Below are positions 52,341-59,979 of a stretch of 64,000 nucleotides of DNA, one piece after another. The notes under the pieces are model-generated. The model was not told where the DNA came from. It did no database searches and saw nothing but the letters and a program-made list of their open reading frames with translations. The first letter of the stretch is position 1; the number at the start of each line of letters is the position of its first letter. Source of the DNA: Stigmatella aurantiaca DW4/3-1 (GTDB taxonomy: Bacteria > Myxococcota > Myxococcia > Myxococcales > Myxococcaceae); the NCBI RefSeq assembly GCF_000165485.1, contig NC_014623.1, positions 2,747,501-2,811,500 of the forward strand, in the 5' to 3' direction. The position numbers were made by a program, and so were the translations under genes.

Positions 52341-53750
52341 CTATCGCGGAGAGGCCCACGTGGCCATGGGGGTCGGCACGGCGTCGCGTGCCTTCAGTGT
52401 GCGCTGCTTCGGGTCTGGCCGCTCCACCACCCGGCCCACCAGGTCGTAGTCGTGCGCCTCCGTCACCTCCAGGGTGACGAACTCGCCCGGATAGGCCAGG
52501 CCGTCGTTGATGTAGACCTGACCGTCGATCTCGGGCGCCTGACCCTCGTGGCGGCCCACCAGCAGGTGCTCGGTCTCCGGGCTCGTCCCTTCCACCAGCA
52601 CCTCGATGCGCTTGCCCACGAGCTTCTTGTTCTGCTCGCGGTTGATGCGCTTCTGGATGGCCATGATCTCGCGCCAGCGCCGCTCGATGGTCTTCTGGGG
52701 AATCTTGTTGGGCATGTCGTATGCCGCGGTCCCCTCCTCATCCGAGTACTGGAAGACCCCCAGGCGCTCGAAGCGCTGCGTCTTCACGAACTCCTTCAGC
52801 AGCTCGAAGTCCTCCTCCGTCTCGCCCGGCAGGCCCACGATGAGCGAGGTGCGCATCACCAGGCCTGGAACACGGGCGCGCAGCTTGGCCAGCAGGTCCG
52901 TGAGGAACTGCGAGTTGCGGCCGCGCTTCATGGACGTGAGCAGCTTGTCGCTGGCGTGCTGCAGCGGCATGTCCAGGTACTTGGCGATCTTCTTCTCCGT
53001 CGCCATCACCTCGATGAGCTCATCCGGGAAGATGCGCGGGTAGGCGTAGTGCAGGCGGATCCACCGCACGTCCACCTTGACCAGCTCCTTGAGCAGATCG
53101 TGCAGCTTGGGCTTGCCGGGCAGGTCATGGCCGTAGGCCGTGAGGTCCTGCGCCACCAGGTTCAGCTCCTGCACGCCCTGGTCCGCCAGGCGCGTGGCCT
53201 CCGCGATGATGTCCGCGATGGGGCGCGAGCGCTGGCCGCCGCGCAGCGTGGGGATGATGCAGAAGGCGCAGGCGTTGTCGCACCCTTCGGACACCTTGAG
53301 GTAGGCGGTGTACGAGGGCATCGAGTTTTCGCGCGGCGTCTCCGCGTTGTGGATGTAGTCCGGATCCGGGATGACCTGCCGCGGGGAGGCTTCGGCCGCG
53401 AGCAGGTCGCCAATCTGGGCGTAGGCGCTGGTGCCCAGGAAGTGGTCCACCTCGGGCATCTCCTGGGCCAACTCGCCGCCGTGGCGCTGGGACAGGCAAC
53501 CCGTCACCACCAGCGTGCTGCAAGCCCCGGACTTCTTGTACTCGGCCATCTCCAGGATGGAGTCCACGGACTCCTGCTTGGCCGGCCCGATGAAGGCACA
53601 GGTGTTGACGACGATGACCTGGGCTTCCGCGGGCTCCTGCACGAGCCGGTAGCCACGCTGCTTGAGGGTGCCCAGCATCACCTCGGAGTCCACCCGGTTC
53701 TTCGGGCAGCCGAGGGTCATCATGTAAAGGCTCTTGGTTTCTGGCTGCAC
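52341..53750 (-). CDS. rimO: Ribosomal protein S12 methylthiotransferase RimO
   Basis: 469 residues from a GTG at 53750, five bases after the upstream gene's stop. The UPF0004 domain begins [18 protein letters not shown], with further cluster cysteines in NTCAFI and TGCLSQR. The radical-SAM motif is [24 protein letters not shown] and the C-terminal TRAM domain ([17 protein letters not shown]) complete it. It adds a methylthio group to an Asp of S12. It lies in a translation-linked minus-strand cluster with yajQ and RNase J. Confidence 0.95.
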
Positions 53751-53755
53751 TGCGT

Positions 53756-54859
53756 CTACCGCTTTCCGAGTTCGGTTCGCTCGAAGTGGTCTGCACTCCA
53801 AACGAAGTTGATGGTCGCGCCGTTCGAGTAACCGATGGTCAAGGCCCCTTCTTCATCGAGGCTCACGGAGAGGGCCCTGCCCAGCGCGCAGGTAGCAGCC
53901 GGCCACTCGAGCACACGCTGTGCTGTCTTGCCCCTTCCGACGACGAGGTAGAGTCCCAGCCTCAACTCCTGGTCGCCGTCACATTTTCCCTCGGTGGCAT
54001 AAGGGTTCTTGCCGGAGACCACGGTCAGGATCGCTCGCCCGCCCGGCAGGGTGAGGGACTCCGGCACATTCACGCCCACCTGGGGAGGGTCCACCGAGTC
54101 CTGGGCCACCAGCGCCCGCAGCGACGGGGTGTTCAGGGGCTCGTCCGCTTCGACCCAGGCTGGGTGGTGGAGCACGCTCCAGCCCAGCCAGCCGCCTTTC
54201 ACCGCCTCCAGCGCCAGGATGTCCGGGGGCGGTTTGAGCTTGAGCCCCTTGCGGAACTCGTCCGGCAGCTTCAGCGCCTCGCCCAGCATGCCCCCATCCT
54301 TGCAGTTGGAGAGCACCGCGGGGGTCTGGCCCACGGAGTCCTGGTCCTCGTAGGTGAGGCAGAGATCGAAGAGGAGCGGGTCGATGGCGGGAAAGCGCGG
54401 GAAGGCCTGGACGGGCAGCGCGATCTCCAGGCTCAGCTTGTTGCCCTGCCGCTGGAGCCCCGCCTCCACCTGCTCCTGGGCGAAGGCGGTGGTGCCCACC
54501 TCGGGCCCCGTGGCGCGCTTGCCGTCGAAGGCGAACCGGAAGGTATTGCCCGTGGCGGTGGGGCCGGCGCCTGGAAAGAAGAGGGTGAGGGTGAGCAGGT
54601 CTCCGGCCGTGACCTGATCGTCGGTGACCTCCACGCCCACGTAGAGCGTCTCCTTGCGCCAGGCCACCCGGGCGGTGAAGGCCGCCGAGGCATCCACGGC
54701 CGCCGGAGGCCGCAGCGTCAGGGGCGAGGAGAAGTCCTTGAGGATGCCATCCAGCTTGGGGGCCTTGGCCAGCGCGGGCACCGCCTTGCTGGGGCGCTCC
54801 TGCGCGACGGAGGCCAGGGGGACGAGCAGCAGGCACAGCGAGAAGAAGGCGGCGCGCAT
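53756..54859 (-). CDS. Secreted protein with CBM9-like N-terminal domain
   Basis: 367 residues with a signal peptide ([14 protein letters not shown]). The first 200 residues fit the carbohydrate-binding module 9 / 'sugar-binding' pattern: [42 protein letters not shown], and TFRFAFDG. The C-terminal half is beta-rich with an unknown role. There is no catalytic motif. It sits between yajQ and rimO; co-transcription does not clarify why. Confidence 0.65.
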
Positions 54860-54861
54860 CG

Positions 54862-55359
54862 CTAGTCCCGGAAGTTGGTGAACTGCATGTCCAGCTTCAG
54901 CCGGTCCTGTTCTTTGCGGAACAAAGCAATGGCGGCCTGCAGGTCATCCTTGTTCTTGCCGGTGACGCGGAGCTGGTCCGCCTGAATGGACCCCTGGACC
55001 TTCAGCTTGGACTCCTTGAGGAGCTTGGTGAGCTCCTTGGCCTTCTCCACGGGGATGCCCTGCTGGAGCTTGATGTTCTGCTTGACGTTGTGCAGGCCCG
55101 TTTTCTCGATATCGAGGAACTCCAGGGCGCGCAGGGAGATGTTTCGCTTGGCCAGCTTGGCCAGGAGGACTTCCTTGGCGGCCTGGACCCGCTCCTCGCT
55201 GTGGGCCTTCACGGTGAGGACGGTCTGGTCCGGGGCGATGACCACGTCCGCCTGGGTCCCCTGGAAGTCGTAGCGGGTGCTGAGCTCCTTCTTGGTCTGG
55301 TTGACCGCGTTGTCGAGCTCGGCCAGGTCGATCTTGGAGACGACGTCGAAGGAAGGCAT
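54862..55359 (-). CDS. yajQ: YajQ-family nucleotide/c-di-GMP-binding protein
   Basis: 165 residues, the normal length, from the ATG at 55359. MPSFDVVSKIDLAELDNAVNQ is the conserved start, followed by STRYDF and the two ferredoxin-like repeats, ending LDMQFTNFRD. In Xanthomonas, the homologue binds c-di-GMP and acts in transcription; in other species it binds RNA or ribosomes. It starts 17 bp after the RNase J stop. Linked to a PilZ kinase elsewhere in the window only by inference. Confidence 0.93.
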   Translation of the reverse strand: MPSFDVVSKIDLAELDNAVNQTKKELSTRYDFQGTQADVVIAPDQTVLTVKAHSEERVQAAKEVLLAKLAKRNISLRALEFLDIEKTGLHNVKQNIKLQQGIPVEKAKELTKLLKESKLKVQGSIQADQLRVTGKNKDDLQAAIALFRKEQDRLKLDMQFTNFRD

Positions 55360-55376
55360 GGACGCCAGGGCCCTTA

Positions 55377-57017
55377 TCACACCTTGACGACCATGGGCAC
55401 CACCAGGGGGCGCTTGGGGGTGAACAGCTTGAAGGCGCGGCGGACCGAGCGGGTCAGTTCCTCTCTCACCAGGGCGTCGTCCCCGCGCAGCTGTGGGGAG
55501 AGCTGGAGAAACAGGGTGCGGGCCTCCTCGGCCACCCGGGGCAGCATCGCCTGTTCATCGAGGGAAAGCCCCTGGCCGGAGAGCTGGGGGCCCGCCATCA
55601 ACGCCAGGGAGGCGCGGTCGATGACGGCCACGGCCACCACCATGCCGGTCTCGGCCAGCCGGGTGCGTTCCTGGAGCGCCTCGGGCGTCACCACCCCCCC
55701 GCTGTAGAGGTCTTTGTGGATGCGGCCCGTGGGCACCTGGCCGGCGAAGCGGCCCCGGCCTTCCTCGAAGGAGATGAGGTCCCCATCCCGGGCCAGCAGG
55801 AGCTGCTCGGGGGTAAGCCCTGACTCGCGCGCCGTGGCCAGGTGGCGGTGGAGGTGGCGCATCTCCCCGTGGACGGGGATGAAGTGCTGGGGACGGACAA
55901 GGTCCAGGACGCGGCGCTGCTGTGGCTGGCTGGCGTGCCCGGAGACGTGGATGTCGGGCTCCACCTGGGCATAGACGAGGCGTGCCCCCGTCCACTGGAG
56001 CTGATCCAGGAGCGCTCCCACGGAGCGCTCGTTGCCGGGGATGGGCCGGGCGCTCAGGACGACCATGTCCCCGGGGCCCAGCCTCACGGGCCCCTTGCCG
56101 GCGGCGAGCTGCGCGAGCCCCGCGCGGGCCTCGCCCTGCGCACCCGTGGAGAGCAAGACAACCCGGCCCGGGGCCAGGCTGGGGACGGCCTCCAGGGGGA
56201 TGAAGAGGGACTCGGGCACGTCGAGGTAGCCGAGCTGCCGCGCCATCTCCACGTTGCGCGTCATGCTGCGGCCCTGGAGGGCCACCCGGCGCCCCAGCTG
56301 CTCGGCCAGCTTCAGCACGGTGCGGACGCGGTGCAGGTTGGAGGCGAAGAGCGCCACGACGATGCGGCCCTGGGCCTCGCGAAAGAGCCGCTCGAAGGCG
56401 TGCTCCACGACACGCTCGCTGCCCGTCTCCTGGGTGACCTCCGAGTTGGTGGAGTCCGACAGGAGGCACAGCACGCCCCGCTCTCCCTCCTCCCCCCAGC
56501 GCTCGAGGTCCGTGCGCAGGCCATCGATGGGGTCGGGGTCCAGCTTGAAATCGCCGGTGTGGATGACGGTCCCCTCGGGGGTCCGGACGATGTAGCCCAC
56601 CGCGTCAGGCACGGTGTGGGTGACGCGGCTGGCCTCCACCGTGAAGACCGAGCCGACGGGGAAGGGGGTCCGGGGCTCGATTTCCCGCAGGTCGGCGATG
56701 ACGCCCAGCTCATCCAGCCGGTTGCGGGCCATGGCGAGGGTGTATCGCGTGCCGTAGACGGGCACGGGCAGGTCATCCAAGAGGTAGGGCAGCGCGCCCA
56801 TGTGGTCCTCGTGCCCGTGCGTGAGGACGATGCCCCGGAACTGCGAGGCGTGCTGCTTCAGGTGGCTGAAGTCCGGAATGACGATGTCGATGCCGGGAGC
56901 CTCCACGGTGGGGAACATCAAGCCCGCATCGATGAGCAGCATCTCTCCGCGGCACGCGAGCACCATCGCATTGAGGCCAATCTCACCCAACCCGCCCAAC
57001 GGAATCACATGAAGCAT
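55377..57017 (-). CDS. rnj: Ribonuclease J family metallo-beta-lactamase RNase
   Basis: 546 residues from the ATG at 57017 (AGGA upstream; an ATG at 57029 is also in frame). The beta-lactamase motif HGHEDHMG binds two zinc ions; DSTNSE, GHASQ and HGEMRHL are typical beta-CASP/RNase J motifs. The N-terminal PLGGLGEIGLNAM is conserved. RNase J degrades and processes mRNA and rRNA from 5' ends. It is 84 bp downstream of the Clp-release factor fusion, on the same strand. Confidence 0.94.
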   Translation of the reverse strand: MLHVIPLGGLGEIGLNAMVLACRGEMLLIDAGLMFPTVEAPGIDIVIPDFSHLKQHASQFRGIVLTHGHEDHMGALPYLLDDLPVPVYGTRYTLAMARNRLDELGVIADLREIEPRTPFPVGSVFTVEASRVTHTVPDAVGYIVRTPEGTVIHTGDFKLDPDPIDGLRTDLERWGEEGERGVLCLLSDSTNSEVTQETGSERVVEHAFERLFREAQGRIVVALFASNLHRVRTVLKLAEQLGRRVALQGRSMTRNVEMARQLGYLDVPESLFIPLEAVPSLAPGRVVLLSTGAQGEARAGLAQLAAGKGPVRLGPGDMVVLSARPIPGNERSVGALLDQLQWTGARLVYAQVEPDIHVSGHASQPQQRRVLDLVRPQHFIPVHGEMRHLHRHLATARESGLTPEQLLLARDGDLISFEEGRGRFAGQVPTGRIHKDLYSGGVVTPEALQERTRLAETGMVVAVAVIDRASLALMAGPQLSGQGLSLDEQAMLPRVAEEARTLFLQLSPQLRGDDALVREELTRSVRRAFKLFTPKRPLVVPMVVKV

Positions 57018-57101
57018 TGTCCTACTCATTATGAATGGTGGCGTGGCGCCGCCCGAGCTTTTTAAGCGGACGCCCACTCCCTTGCTTGCTCTTCCCACGG
57101 G

Positions 57102-59921
57102 TCAAGGGGAGGGCAGGGATTCCGGAGGCGGGCGAGAAATCCAGGCCGCGATGAACAGGTCCATGTCGCCGCGCAGCACGTCTTTGACGCGGGGCGTTCC
57201 CGCGCCGGTGCGGGGATCTTCCACGCGCGCACCGCGGCCCAGGTAATACCGGCGGGCCTCGTCCGTGCTGGTCGCCTGGCCCGAGACGACGCGCGTGGCG
57301 ATGCCCTTCAACTCGTCCAGCTCGCCCGAGCCCATCAAGGTCAAGACCCGGCCGGTGGCGGAGTCCTTCACGGTGACTTCGGTCCGGACGCGCTCCAGGA
57401 AGGCGCCTTCGTGCTGCTTGACCGGGCGGCCCTCGACCGAGAGTTCCAGGTCCTCCGGTGCGTCGAGCGCCCCGCCGCGATGCACACGGACGTAGGCGCG
57501 CTGGCGCTTCTCCTCTTCGATTCGCCGGTGCAGCCCGGCTTCTCCCGCGAGGAACCCGTAAGCCCCCGGCCCCGCGATGCGCACCACCACCCGGGCGGGA
57601 CTCTCCGCCTCGGCCACGAGCATGGCCTCGTAGCCCCGCTTCTGGGCCCACCCGAGGTACATGGTGGCGAGCTCCTGGATCCAGGCGTCCTGGGCTTCCA
57701 CCGAGTCGCTGACACAGATGTCCACCAGCGCCTCGACGTCGTTGGCGGTGGCCCCCGAGGCGTGCAGGGCCTCGGACATCTGCACCTCGCGGGCCACTTC
57801 CTCCACCTGTTTCGCCGCGGAGGTCAGCTGCACCTCGTTCTTGGCCTCGCGCACCAGCCGCCGGGCGAAGGTGACCGCCTGCTCCATCCGCTCCAACTCG
57901 TTGATCTGCGCCTCGACCGTGCGGAAGGCGCGCAGGGTCGCCGCCGCGCGCGCCGGGTCATCCCAGAGGTTGGGCGCCTGGGTCTCGGACAGGAGCTGGT
58001 TGCGCCTCTCCTCGAGCAAGGGCCGCTCGGCGGACACGGACAGCGCCCGGGCCCGCCCCACCAGCCGGTCCATCTCATGGAGCAGGGACTTGCGGTCGAG
58101 CCGACGTTTGACGGACGCCGCCTTCGGGGTGGGCAGGGAGAGCTGCGCGGTGGCTTCGCGGGGCGGGGGCAGGGGCTCGGCCACGGCCATGACCTTGCCG
58201 CCGGGACGGGCCTCCACCCGCACGGGGGTGCCGGGCCGCAGGGGCCGGCGGGCGATCTCCACGGCGAGCGCGGCGGTGAGCGTCTTCTCGATCTCCCGTT
58301 GGAGGAAGCGCGCGCCGAACTGGGGCGAGTAGCCGCGCTCCACGAGCAGGTCCACCACCTCCGGGGTCACCTCCACGTCCAGGGCCCGTGCCCGGATGCC
58401 CTCGCGCTCCAGCACGCGGCCCACCTCGCGCTGAGCGATCTTGCGGATCTCCACCTTCGTCAGCGGCCGGAAGTGACAGATGGCGTCGAAGCGGTTGAGG
58501 AACTCGGGACGGAAGGCCTCGGCGATGCGGCGGTCCACCTCGGTGACGAGCTCATGCTCGCGCCGGTTGCCGGCGAAGCCCAGCGCGGGCTCCCGGTACA
58601 CCTCCGCGCCCACGTTGGACGTGGCCACGATGAGTGTGTTGTTGCAGGAGATCGTCTCTCCCGCCCCGTTGACGAACGTGCCCTCATCGAAGAGCTGGAG
58701 AAAGCGGTCGTGCACGCTGCGCGCCGCCTTCTCGAACTCATCGAGCAGCAGCACGGTGAACACCTTGCCGTCGAGCAGGGCGGTCAGCTCGCCCCGCCGG
58801 GTCTCCATGGCCGGGGCCCAGGAGGCGCCGAAGGGGACATTCTCGTCCCCATCGTTGGGGAAGTCCGCCATGTTGAGGCGCACCAGCCGGTCCGCGGAGC
58901 CGAACAGGTACTCCGCCAGGAGCTTGGCGAGCTGGGTCTTGCCCACGCCCGTGGGGCCGGCGAAGAGGAACACGCCCAGCGGGCGGCGGGGATCGTTCAG
59001 ACCCGCCTTGAGCAGCGCCACGGAGCGCAGCACGGCTCCTACCGCGTCCGTCTGTCCGAGCAGCCGCTCCCCGAAGAAGCGCTCCGTCTCATCGAGGTCC
59101 AGCGGCATCGCGTCGTCCACCACGAAGCGGGGAAGGCGCGTGGCGGAGCAGAACCGGGTGAGGACGTCTTCGGGCCCCACCCGGTCGTGGGCCGCGCTGC
59201 TCGCCTCGGCGGCGGTCTCCTTGAGCAGCTCAATGGCCTTGCGCGGCATCCGTTGGGCCAGCAGGAACTTGGCGGACAGGCGCAAGGCCAGATCGCACGC
59301 GGCCGGGTCAATGGGCAGGCGCAGCTCGCGCTCCAACTCCTCGGCGACCCGGCCGAGGATCCACCGCGAGCGCTCCAGGGGGGGCTCCAGCAGGGGAATG
59401 AGGTGGAGCCGCTCGGCGAGCGCCTCGTCCGCGCGCAGCAACTCCTGCACGCGTTTGGGCTCGGTCTCGAAGATGAAGCGCAAGCCTCCCATGCGCAAGG
59501 CACGGATGGCCACGGGCGCCAGGGGCCCGCCGAGGACCAGGGGAAGATCCCGGATGTAGACGATGGGGCAGGGGTGCCGGCTCAGGTGGTCGAGCAGCTC
59601 CTCGAAGCGCTCGGCGGCCTGACGGTCGGTGCTGCGGGCCAGGATGTTGGCGGTGGAGATCTCCACCAGGCGCGCTTGGGTGAGCTCCGCGTCCACGCGC
59701 CCCTCGGCGATGCGTCGGGCCACCTCCTGGATGAGCGCGCTCTTGCCGACCCCCGGCTCTCCGGCCAGCAAGGGGTGCTTGCCCCCGCGGGTGAGCAGCC
59801 CGAGCACCTCCGCCACCACCGCGTCCGCGCCGTGAGCGGGGGGGAGCTTTCCTTCGCGTGCGATCGCCGTGAGATCGCGATCGATGAGCCTCTCGTTGTC
59901 CTCGCTCTTCCTCGTCGCCAT
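57102..59921 (-). CDS. Double AAA+ Clp-like ATPase fused to a release-factor-2-like domain lacking GGQ and SPF
   Basis: 939 residues in one frame. AAA-1: Walker A GEPGVGKS (54-61); Walker B is degenerate (IVYIRDLP). AAA-2 (about 285-580) is ClpB/ClpA-like and complete: GPTGVGKT (322-329), VLLLDEFEKA (Asp394, Glu395), sensor-1 TSN (434-436), arginine finger in FLNR (R477), sensor-2 GAR (536-538). No Clp N-domain or long middle domain is seen. From about 601 it becomes a class-I release factor: PCRF-like LWDDPARAAATLRAF, EAQDAWIQELATMYLGWAQKRGY, GPGAYGFLAGEAGLHRR and a C-terminus EDPRTGAGTPRVKDVLRGDMD matching RF2. The GGQ and SPF motifs are absent. I know no described protein with this layout. 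Confidence 0.85.
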   Translation of the reverse strand: MATRKSEDNERLIDRDLTAIAREGKLPPAHGADAVVAEVLGLLTRGGKHPLLAGEPGVGKSALIQEVARRIAEGRVDAELTQARLVEISTANILARSTDRQAAERFEELLDHLSRHPCPIVYIRDLPLVLGGPLAPVAIRALRMGGLRFIFETEPKRVQELLRADEALAERLHLIPLLEPPLERSRWILGRVAEELERELRLPIDPAACDLALRLSAKFLLAQRMPRKAIELLKETAAEASSAAHDRVGPEDVLTRFCSATRLPRFVVDDAMPLDLDETERFFGERLLGQTDAVGAVLRSVALLKAGLNDPRRPLGVFLFAGPTGVGKTQLAKLLAEYLFGSADRLVRLNMADFPNDGDENVPFGASWAPAMETRRGELTALLDGKVFTVLLLDEFEKAARSVHDRFLQLFDEGTFVNGAGETISCNNTLIVATSNVGAEVYREPALGFAGNRREHELVTEVDRRIAEAFRPEFLNRFDAICHFRPLTKVEIRKIAQREVGRVLEREGIRARALDVEVTPEVVDLLVERGYSPQFGARFLQREIEKTLTAALAVEIARRPLRPGTPVRVEARPGGKVMAVAEPLPPPREATAQLSLPTPKAASVKRRLDRKSLLHEMDRLVGRARALSVSAERPLLEERRNQLLSETQAPNLWDDPARAAATLRAFRTVEAQINELERMEQAVTFARRLVREAKNEVQLTSAAKQVEEVAREVQMSEALHASGATANDVEALVDICVSDSVEAQDAWIQELATMYLGWAQKRGYEAMLVAEAESPARVVVRIAGPGAYGFLAGEAGLHRRIEEEKRQRAYVRVHRGGALDAPEDLELSVEGRPVKQHEGAFLERVRTEVTVKDSATGRVLTLMGSGELDELKGIATRVVSGQATSTDEARRYYLGRGARVEDPRTGAGTPRVKDVLRGDMDLFIAAWISRPPPESLPSP

Positions 59922-59979
59922 GATGAACCGCCCCTGAGAGGAGCGGCACTCTAACCTGTTTCAGCGCGCTGGCTGGGTT

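Follow-up and report, generated by a model that had tools for sequence, protein, structure and literature searches.

A myxobacterial double AAA+ ATPase of the HSP100 type fused to an RF2-like module without GGQ and SPF motifs

What might an ATPase of the HSP100 type do with a release factor 2 (RF2) from which the motifs for peptide release and stop-codon reading are missing? The question is raised by a gene in a 64,000-nucleotide stretch (the window) of the genome of Stigmatella aurantiaca DW4/3-1 (contig NC_014623.1, positions 2,747,501 to 2,811,500). The gene lies at positions 57102-59921 of the window on the minus strand, with its ATG start at 59921 and its stop at 57104-57102, and encodes a product of 939 amino acids in a single frame. 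An earlier note, made from the sequence alone, had correctly described an uninterrupted 939-codon frame at these coordinates and had interpreted the product as a Clp-type unfoldase docked on a stalled or terminating ribosome by a motif-less RF2; the motifs quoted in it (EAQDAW, GAYGFLAGEAGLHR, EDPRTG and VLRGDMDLFI) are all present in the translation. The protein is an HSP100-type ATPase rather than a member of the release factors, and belongs to a family that is conserved and under purifying selection. Its parts, in coordinates of the window, are as follows.

57102..59921, minus strand: whole gene, 939 codons and stop; HSP100-type double AAA+ ATPase fused to an RF2-like module
59172..59885, minus strand: D1 AAA+ module, residues 13-250, shortened; Walker A kept, Walker B replaced, KYRG pore loop absent
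59544..59561, minus strand: degenerate Walker B of D1, VYIRDL, residues 121-126; DE in 0/57 aligned sequences
58212..59096, minus strand: second AAA+ module (D2) and its D2-small domain, residues 276-570; no variation in Walker A, Walker B or the Arg finger, GAR at sensor 2 in 60/61 sequences
58809..58832, minus strand: rebuilt pore loop of D2, FGASWAPA, residues 364-371, replacing GYVG; Trp368 in 59/59 sequences
58728..58751, minus strand: Walker B of D2, LLLDEFEK, residues 391-398; 58/58 sequences
58575..58583, minus strand: LGF tripeptide, residues 447-449, at the position of the ClpP-docking loop of ClpA and ClpC; [LIMV]GF in 59/59 sequences
58095..58211, minus strand: linker, residues 571-609; TAQxxLP mostly conserved
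57126..58094, minus strand: RF2-like module, residues 610-932, comprising a helical domain 1, domain 2, a domain 3 that is eroded, and the C-terminal part of domain 2
57504..57524, minus strand: site of the RF2 SPF-loop deletion, residues 800-806, RIEEEKR, from alignment with RF2
57402..57410, minus strand: GGQ position, residues 838-840, EGA; second Gly retained, Gln in 0/63 sequences
57204..57221, minus strand: EDPRTG, residues 901-906, counterpart of VKDxRTG in RF2; 63/63 sequences

Both halves were recognized independently by profile and sequence searches. Pfam matches of the product comprise AAA_2 (residues 313-481, 1.1e-34), ClpB_D2-small (487-569, 2.5e-14) and PCRF (637-799, 8.5e-15). 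The NCBIfam ClpA model matches in one stretch through both AAA+ modules (15-570, 1.9e-84) and prfB matches with 2.2e-23 (best stretch 628-801), but since all NCBIfam scores fall under the curated cut-offs, no NCBIfam model claims the fusion protein. The same scores place it closer to RF2 (82.9 bits) than to RF1 (28.0 bits). A phmmer search against PDB sequences led from the first 600 residues to ClpC, ClpB and ClpA, and from the C-terminal 339 residues to RF2 (1.2e-19). Together with the structural models, these matches put the AAA+ part at about residues 13-570 and the RF2-like part at 610-932, in agreement with the division into two AAA+ modules and an RF2-like remainder made from sequence inspection.

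The C-terminal part was modelled with AlphaFold2 from 21 family sequences and zero RF2 sequences, giving a mean predicted local distance difference test score (pLDDT) of 80.9 and a predicted template modelling score (pTM) of 0.74. A Foldseek search with this model returned RF2 chains in the top rows (8p16, 9.0e-18; 1gqe, 1.5e-17). The best match in VIA-align was 1gqe, the free crystal structure of Escherichia coli RF2 (Z 23.8, 3.8 Å, 317 of 339 residues), and the first unrelated row, a designed helix bundle, followed at Z 9.5. In the full-length model (pLDDT 72.1, pTM 0.46), residues 4-586 align with Hsp104, ClpA and ClpC, and residues 610-932 with 1gqe (Z 23.1, 4.1 Å, 316 residues); because of the low pTM, the model does not give the relative placement of the AAA+ and RF parts. 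Structure prediction of the whole protein and of its C-terminal half had been suggested in the earlier note as a check, and the latter is predicted to be a true RF2 fold.

The relationship to RF2 is equally clear from a profile comparison of the RF module with 40 RF2s (probability 99.8, E 1.9e-28, 285 columns), which also locates the losses. In this alignment the SPF loop is deleted from the fusion, together with about 22 residues ahead of the final part of domain 2 that correspond to a helix and the switch region. The GAGG loop is no longer conserved among the fusions, and xGx stands in place of GGQ across the family, with Gln in none of the 63 aligned sequences. A search of the genome with the Pfam model RF-1 (PF00472, the GGQ domain) at E up to 0.001 matched RF1, RF2 and an ArfB-like gene, and not the fusion. 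The absence of both motifs, first noticed in this gene, is thus family-wide. With GGQ, SPF, the GAGG loop and the switch region lost, it is very unlikely that the protein serves in peptide release or in normal stop reading, and the RF module is very probably unable to act as a release factor, as judged from its sequence.

The RF module is a maintained domain under new constraints. At 29 positions the same residue occurs in at least 90% of both fusion and RF2 sequences; domain 2 contributes 22 of them over its two parts, domain 1 six and domain 3 one. A further 38 positions are invariant in the fusions only; 20 of these lie in residues 609-718 and eight in 903-930 (P903, P910, R911, D914, I924, A926, W927 and R930). 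Across the four parts of the module, conservation is lowest in domain 3 (mean majority 0.62) and highest in the C-terminal segment (0.85). The charge of this segment is 2 to 3 in all 20 fusions compared, whereas the 40 RF2s range from -4 to 0, a gain that holds in both controls. Taken over its whole length, the module is weakly acidic, with a median charge of -3. An apparent loss of acidity in domain 1 (mean +1.0 against -10.1 in RF2) was dropped from consideration, as the gap narrows to a small one with overlapping ranges when RF2s of the same phylum are used (-6 to 2 against -13 to -1).

The AAA+ ring has also been remodelled, in both D1 and D2, a feature that was not part of the earlier note. 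In D1, Walker A is present in all 37 sequences compared, while the acidic pair of Walker B occurs in 0/57 and the KYR pore loop in 0/37. D2 retains both Walker A and Walker B in all 58 sequences compared, the Arg finger in all 59 and sensor 2 in 60 of 61. Its pore loop, in contrast, has GYVG in none of 59 sequences and FGxxW[AGS] instead, with an invariant Trp; GYVG is present in the three Clp paralogues of the same genome used for comparison (L002, L003 and L006, two further AAA matches of the genome being left out). The tripeptide [LIMV]GF at the position of the ClpP loop, found throughout the family, has a counterpart in the organism's own ClpA-like (IGF) and ClpC-like (LGF) proteins and is absent from its ClpB-like protein (names assigned by eye). 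The aromatic residue of pore loop 1, carried by Tyr loops, is described as a key conserved feature and key substrate contact of AAA+ unfoldases in an excerpt of PMC9663308. Of the proposal of a Clp-type unfoldase, the HSP100-type double AAA+ fold therefore stands, whereas unfoldase activity is unproven, since canonical pore-1 Tyr loops are missing from both rings and Walker B of D1 is lost. A cautious reading of these sequences is a motor that would work through D2 only, with an altered grip.

The two halves have been maintained together. In a survey of 195 Myxococcota genomes (thresholds E <= 1e-17 for the RF half and E <= 1e-80 for the AAA half), the RF half was found in 87 and the AAA half in 82, all 82 lying within the 87. 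The search for the same fusion across the phylum, as proposed in the earlier note, therefore showed co-occurrence of the halves in every genome with the AAA half. Within the class, the fusion was found in 86 of the 96 genomes searched from the family to which the window belongs and was missing from 10, and one more carrier (G023) comes from another family. The five genomes with the RF half only comprise four in which the gene is truncated at contig ends (G008, G009, G076 and G079) and one with a deletion (G101); the draft assemblies G007 and G126 have the AAA and RF halves on separate contigs. The fusion occurs as one copy per genome with a match, the two RF matches in G007 being two parts. 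Among 20 relatives, 17 have a single open reading frame, and the other three are truncated by contig ends. The fusion is missing from the small genomes G134-G136 of the same family (2.1-2.7 Mb), and also from the larger G014 (6.9 Mb) and G016 (6.8 Mb).

A scan of 84,980 species genomes gave 596 stretches, of which 529 were confirmed; the figures given here are from the best 80. At least 27 of these are family loci, all of them myxobacterial (Hyalangium, Corallococcus, Myxococcus, Pyxidicoccus, Archangium, Myxococcaceae or Myxococcales). The remaining 53 have far lower scores (E >= 5e-19), and family members outside Myxococcota were rejected among the best 80 of 529, as all 53 non-family loci have GGQ and SP[FWY] within the frame that was matched and none has the AAA half. 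Plasmid records yielded 29 matches to the C-terminal half, all below 60% identity, the named ones among the 20 listed being RF2, and 1244 matches to the gene DNA, none of which reached 80% coverage; phage records yielded 18 matches, all below 60%. A mobile home for the fusion was thus not found among plasmid and phage records.

Against four relatives, the ratio of nonsynonymous to synonymous substitution rates (dN/dS) ranges from 0.06 to 0.13 across the AAA part and from 0.07 to 0.23 across the RF part, while values against a fifth, distant relative (0.34 and 0.56, respectively) are unreliable. A tree of 31 sequences (eight of 21 fusions, 10 Myxococcota RF2s, 12 of 30 other RF2s and the organism's own RF1) places the eight fusions on a single branch of length 2.48 with support of 100/100, and does not indicate the source RF2. 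It drew long-branch and composition warnings, and RF1 falls among the Myxococcota RF2s, so its deep branches are unreliable.

No separate-gene ancestor of the RF module was found. In the metagenome-assembled genome G101, the RF module at L083:9719-10909 looks like a stand-alone gene; however, remnants of the N-terminus and linker in broken frames point to a later deletion. The start region, linker and RF module are in different frames there and the AAA part is deleted (by eye), and the neighbours of the remnant, named by eye, are a XerC-like gene on one side and HslV/HslU-like genes on the other. In another genome (G120, locus L144, on two contigs), a frame break in the linker at about 1490-1505 splits the AAA and RF halves, for which sequencing error, a pseudogene and frameshifting are candidates. 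An artefact or decaying gene, whether a false join or a fossil, which these two copies might recall, has a negligible probability and is refuted by family-wide conservation, that is, by the 82 genomes with both halves, the single frames of the relatives, the low dN/dS in close pairs and the invariant motifs. The earlier interpretation would have been undermined by a C-terminal half folding unlike RF2, or by homologues showing two genes and an erroneous join; the RF2-like fold is confirmed, and neither separate-gene homologues nor an assembly join were found.

The reading that we favour, tentatively and as something short of probable, is a one-motor machine of the HSP100 type that uses the decoding-dead RF2 as a docking module on a translation complex. 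The second ring (D2) would be the sole working motor of this lineage-specific, HSP100-derived ATPase, and the duplicated RF2, without decoding and release ability and likely in a compact form, would be its built-in docking module, of which a hexameric ring would carry six. This module would most likely dock on a translation complex, either a ribosome whose A site is empty or abnormal or one of the factors that RF2 normally encounters. Binding by the dead RF2 would involve no codon reading, and ATP hydrolysis by D2 would displace, remodel or remove something at the factor side of the complex; a removed target might then be passed to ClpP via the [LIMV]GF loop. The N-terminal side of RF2 faces the factor-entry (L11) side of the ribosome, away from the exit tunnel. 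Since the ring is joined to this side of the RF module, extraction of a nascent chain from the tunnel side is unlikely, and it is the least likely version of the interpretation in the earlier note, which had listed a nascent chain, a factor or a ribosomal protein as possible targets.

In favour of this proposal are the RF2 fold with its profile match and the 29 shared positions, the losses that make release and stop reading unlikely, the intact D2 motifs, the co-occurrence of the two halves, the low dN/dS, and the invariant [LIMV]GF together with the ClpP genes of the genome. The best structural match is to free RF2, and most ribosome-bound RF2 chains fit the C-terminal model at only about 12 Å over 243-309 residues, which is suggestive, from one prediction, of a resemblance to the compact free form. 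Other observations weigh against the proposal. Two RF2 chains labelled as pre-accommodated, which are also ribosome-bound, likewise lie at about 12 Å (5mdw, 12.1 Å over 309 residues; 6ost, 11.6 Å over 307), and free Thermus thermophilus RF2 (2ihr) fits at 9.4 Å over 301 residues. As these pre-accommodated and free chains fit poorly too, a compact pose in the A site is not specifically supported. The stop-reading loops that help RF2 to sit in the A site are gone, and the loss of the GAGG and SPF loops and the switch region weakens a simple model of A-site docking. The charge of domain 3 has a median of 0 against +6 in 10 Myxococcota RF2s, although it is not lower than in 30 other RF2s (+2, range -4 to 6). 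The RF part has a dN/dS that exceeds the value for the ring by a factor of 1.6-1.9 in three of the four close comparisons and equals it in the remaining one, a pattern that might also be seen in a generic protein-binding domain. Other Clp ATPases contact ClpP through the face on which the C-terminal RF module would be placed, and the module may therefore hinder ClpP docking. The genome already has RF1, RF2, the ArfB-like gene, RF3, an NFACT (RqcH-type) gene and tmRNA, so there is no obvious gap for the fusion to fill. Finally, neighbour clustering of 31 loci gave no cluster in more than 11 of them, and that one was largely an antisense frame of the fusion gene; the clustering relied on a longest-frame choice that favours false antisense frames, which limited its power.

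An unlikely alternative, and the best of those considered, is a ClpP partner whose RF2 fold would now bind clients or adaptors and would have lost every tie to the ribosome, so that D2 would pull clients and ClpP would degrade them. The conserved [LIMV]GF, shared with the organism's ClpA-like and ClpC-like proteins and not with its ClpB-like one, is a form of the loop (hydrophobic residue, G, then F or L) that such a partner would carry in its last AAA+ module, and the genome holds two strong, full ClpP genes (L160 and L161) along with one weak partial match. The 38 fusion-only invariant positions, clustered in 609-718 and 903-930, suggest a new interface. Pulling of clients, however, sits poorly with the lack of a canonical pore-1 Tyr loop in either ring; the tripeptide starts with Met in 22 of the 59 sequences, and the position of the RF module on the C-terminal, ClpP-facing side (the topology of other Clp ATPases) also counts against it.

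The Clp complement of myxobacteria has been described in Myxococcus xanthus, for which an excerpt of PMC11423568 reports two ClpP genes and counts eight clpA/B/C-like genes. According to the same excerpt, mutation of the clpC gene MXAN_4832 affects development and sporulation; part of PMC6617876 reports that this gene and the Clp operon MXAN_4823-4825 increase on exposure to chloramphenicol. At nine loci examined, including L062, L065, L066 and L070 from Myxococcus and Pyxidicoccus (flanks of about 8 kb on the upstream and 10 kb on the downstream side), the fusion is the only Clp match, which argues weakly against MXAN_4832 being the fusion.

A more specific version of translation docking, rather improbable, would make the fusion a one-chain bacterial counterpart of Vms1-Cdc48. 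Six codon-blind, dead RFs would sense an abnormal or empty A site, and D2, with its Trp-type pore loop, would strip a factor or ribosomal protein from the factor side and hand it to ClpP. In eukaryotic ribosome quality control, Vms1 is likewise a release-factor-like protein that works with an AAA+ machine, Cdc48/p97 (partial text of PMC6514570). Vms1, however, has an aeRF-1 fold, is a peptidyl hydrolase and is a separate protein joined to its partner by a VIM motif, so the likeness is one of analogy only.

Two further alternatives are about equally improbable. In one, the fusion would be an RNA-binding regulator comparable to plant PrfB3, its motif-less RF2 binding particular RNAs or rRNA while the ring remodels ribonucleoproteins. 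A precedent exists in PrfB3 itself, which the earlier note had invoked, correctly, as a motif-less RF2 paralogue with an RNA role: it is related to RF2, has lost both SPF and GGQ, has taken on another role and binds an mRNA 3' untranslated region (excerpt of PMC5897788). PrfB3 differs in being a chloroplast protein, with no ATPase part reported in that excerpt, and the two proteins are likened here by description. The positive charge gained by the C-terminal segment is in line with RNA binding, and the weakly acidic character of the whole module is not; RNase J lies downstream in the genus of the window and some relatives, but the adjacency was not seen in most loci examined.

In the other, which we regard as similarly doubtful, the protein would be a non-threading, ATP-driven switch or remodeller, in which a change in the shape of a hexamer moves the RF modules, for example as competitors of RF2, and no polypeptide is pulled. 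The Walker B acidic pair missing from D1 in all 57 sequences, the replacement of GYVG in all 59 and the retention of the RF fold would fit such a switch. Against it stands the invariant Trp368 in the rebuilt D2 loop: Trp can act as the pore aromatic, as in D2 of p97, so threading may persist in another form.

An ABM-domain gene lies upstream of the fusion in the window. Downstream, at 52341-57098 on the minus strand, is a co-directional block of RNase J, a YajQ-type DUF520 gene, a gene without a Pfam match and a RimO-type radical SAM gene (YajQ and RimO identified by eye). This RNase J block directly follows the fusion in the window and seven relatives (L039-L045; L059 is from the same genome as L042) and lies about 3 kb off in L046, L067, L069 and L082; RNase J was not found in the other loci within the flanks examined, some of which are very short. 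An RNase J/YajQ/RimO operon was rejected as a family-wide functional clue, the adjacency being restricted to some relatives. A role in a defence system was also rejected, as the PADLOC matches (DolB, 1.2e-25, and five others) fall in the AAA+ parts and had no other support. An 847-codon frame runs antisense to nearly the entire fusion gene (57411-59954, plus strand); such frames are common in coding DNA of high G+C content, and it is taken as chance.

Each half of the protein has well-known relatives. HSP100/Clp proteins (ClpC, ClpA, ClpB and Hsp104) share its two AAA+ modules, D2-small domain, D2 catalytic motifs and GF tripeptide at the ClpP-loop position, and the full-length model matches Hsp104 (6n8z; Z 28.0, 6.9 Å, 552 residues), ClpA (6w20; Z 27.8, 6.7 Å, 539) and ClpC (9gi1; Z 27.5, 7.0 Å, 562). 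Unlike them, it lacks the Clp N-domain, the M-domain between D1 and D2, Walker B of D1, KYRG and GYVG, and it bears the RF2 module at its C-terminus. With RF2 it shares the fold over domains 1 and 2 and a small domain 3 (the PCRF domain and domain 2/4); it differs in lacking GGQ, SPF, the GAGG loop and the switch region with the preceding helix, and in being joined to an AAA+ ring in an organism with separate RF1 and RF2 genes. PrfH, a release factor paralogue seen on damaged ribosomes, is a weaker structural match (9mor; Z 9.2, 3.0 Å, 106 residues), its Z being no better than that of unrelated helical rows (9.5). It has no AAA+ part; GGQ is present in PrfH and domain 1 is absent.

We know of no class-I release factor, or relative of one, with a covalently attached motor ATPase, nor of an HSP100 protein that carries a translation-factor module. 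Titles and abstract openings of the open-access papers listed contain no description of an AAA+/RF2 fusion, subscription literature being mostly outside this search; within those listings, the statement in the earlier note that no such system had been described is borne out. A term search of the main text of PMC6514570, the review in which a mention would be likeliest, gave no word that starts with Clp or myxo. Both folds are known; what appears to be new is that they are joined, that each has lost its ancestral activity and that the product is conserved.

An understanding of this family may be of use in several ways. Its ring is a naturally occurring HSP100 variant in which the D2 pore loop has been rebuilt, and it lends itself to asking how much of the canonical grip is required. 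The family is conserved, single-copy, under purifying selection and present in culturable genera, so that the idea of a dead release factor steering an AAA+ machine is directly testable. If the counterpart of Vms1-Cdc48 outlined above were true, the fusion would represent a type of AAA+ machine that is new, is coupled to translation and is confined to multicellular myxobacteria.

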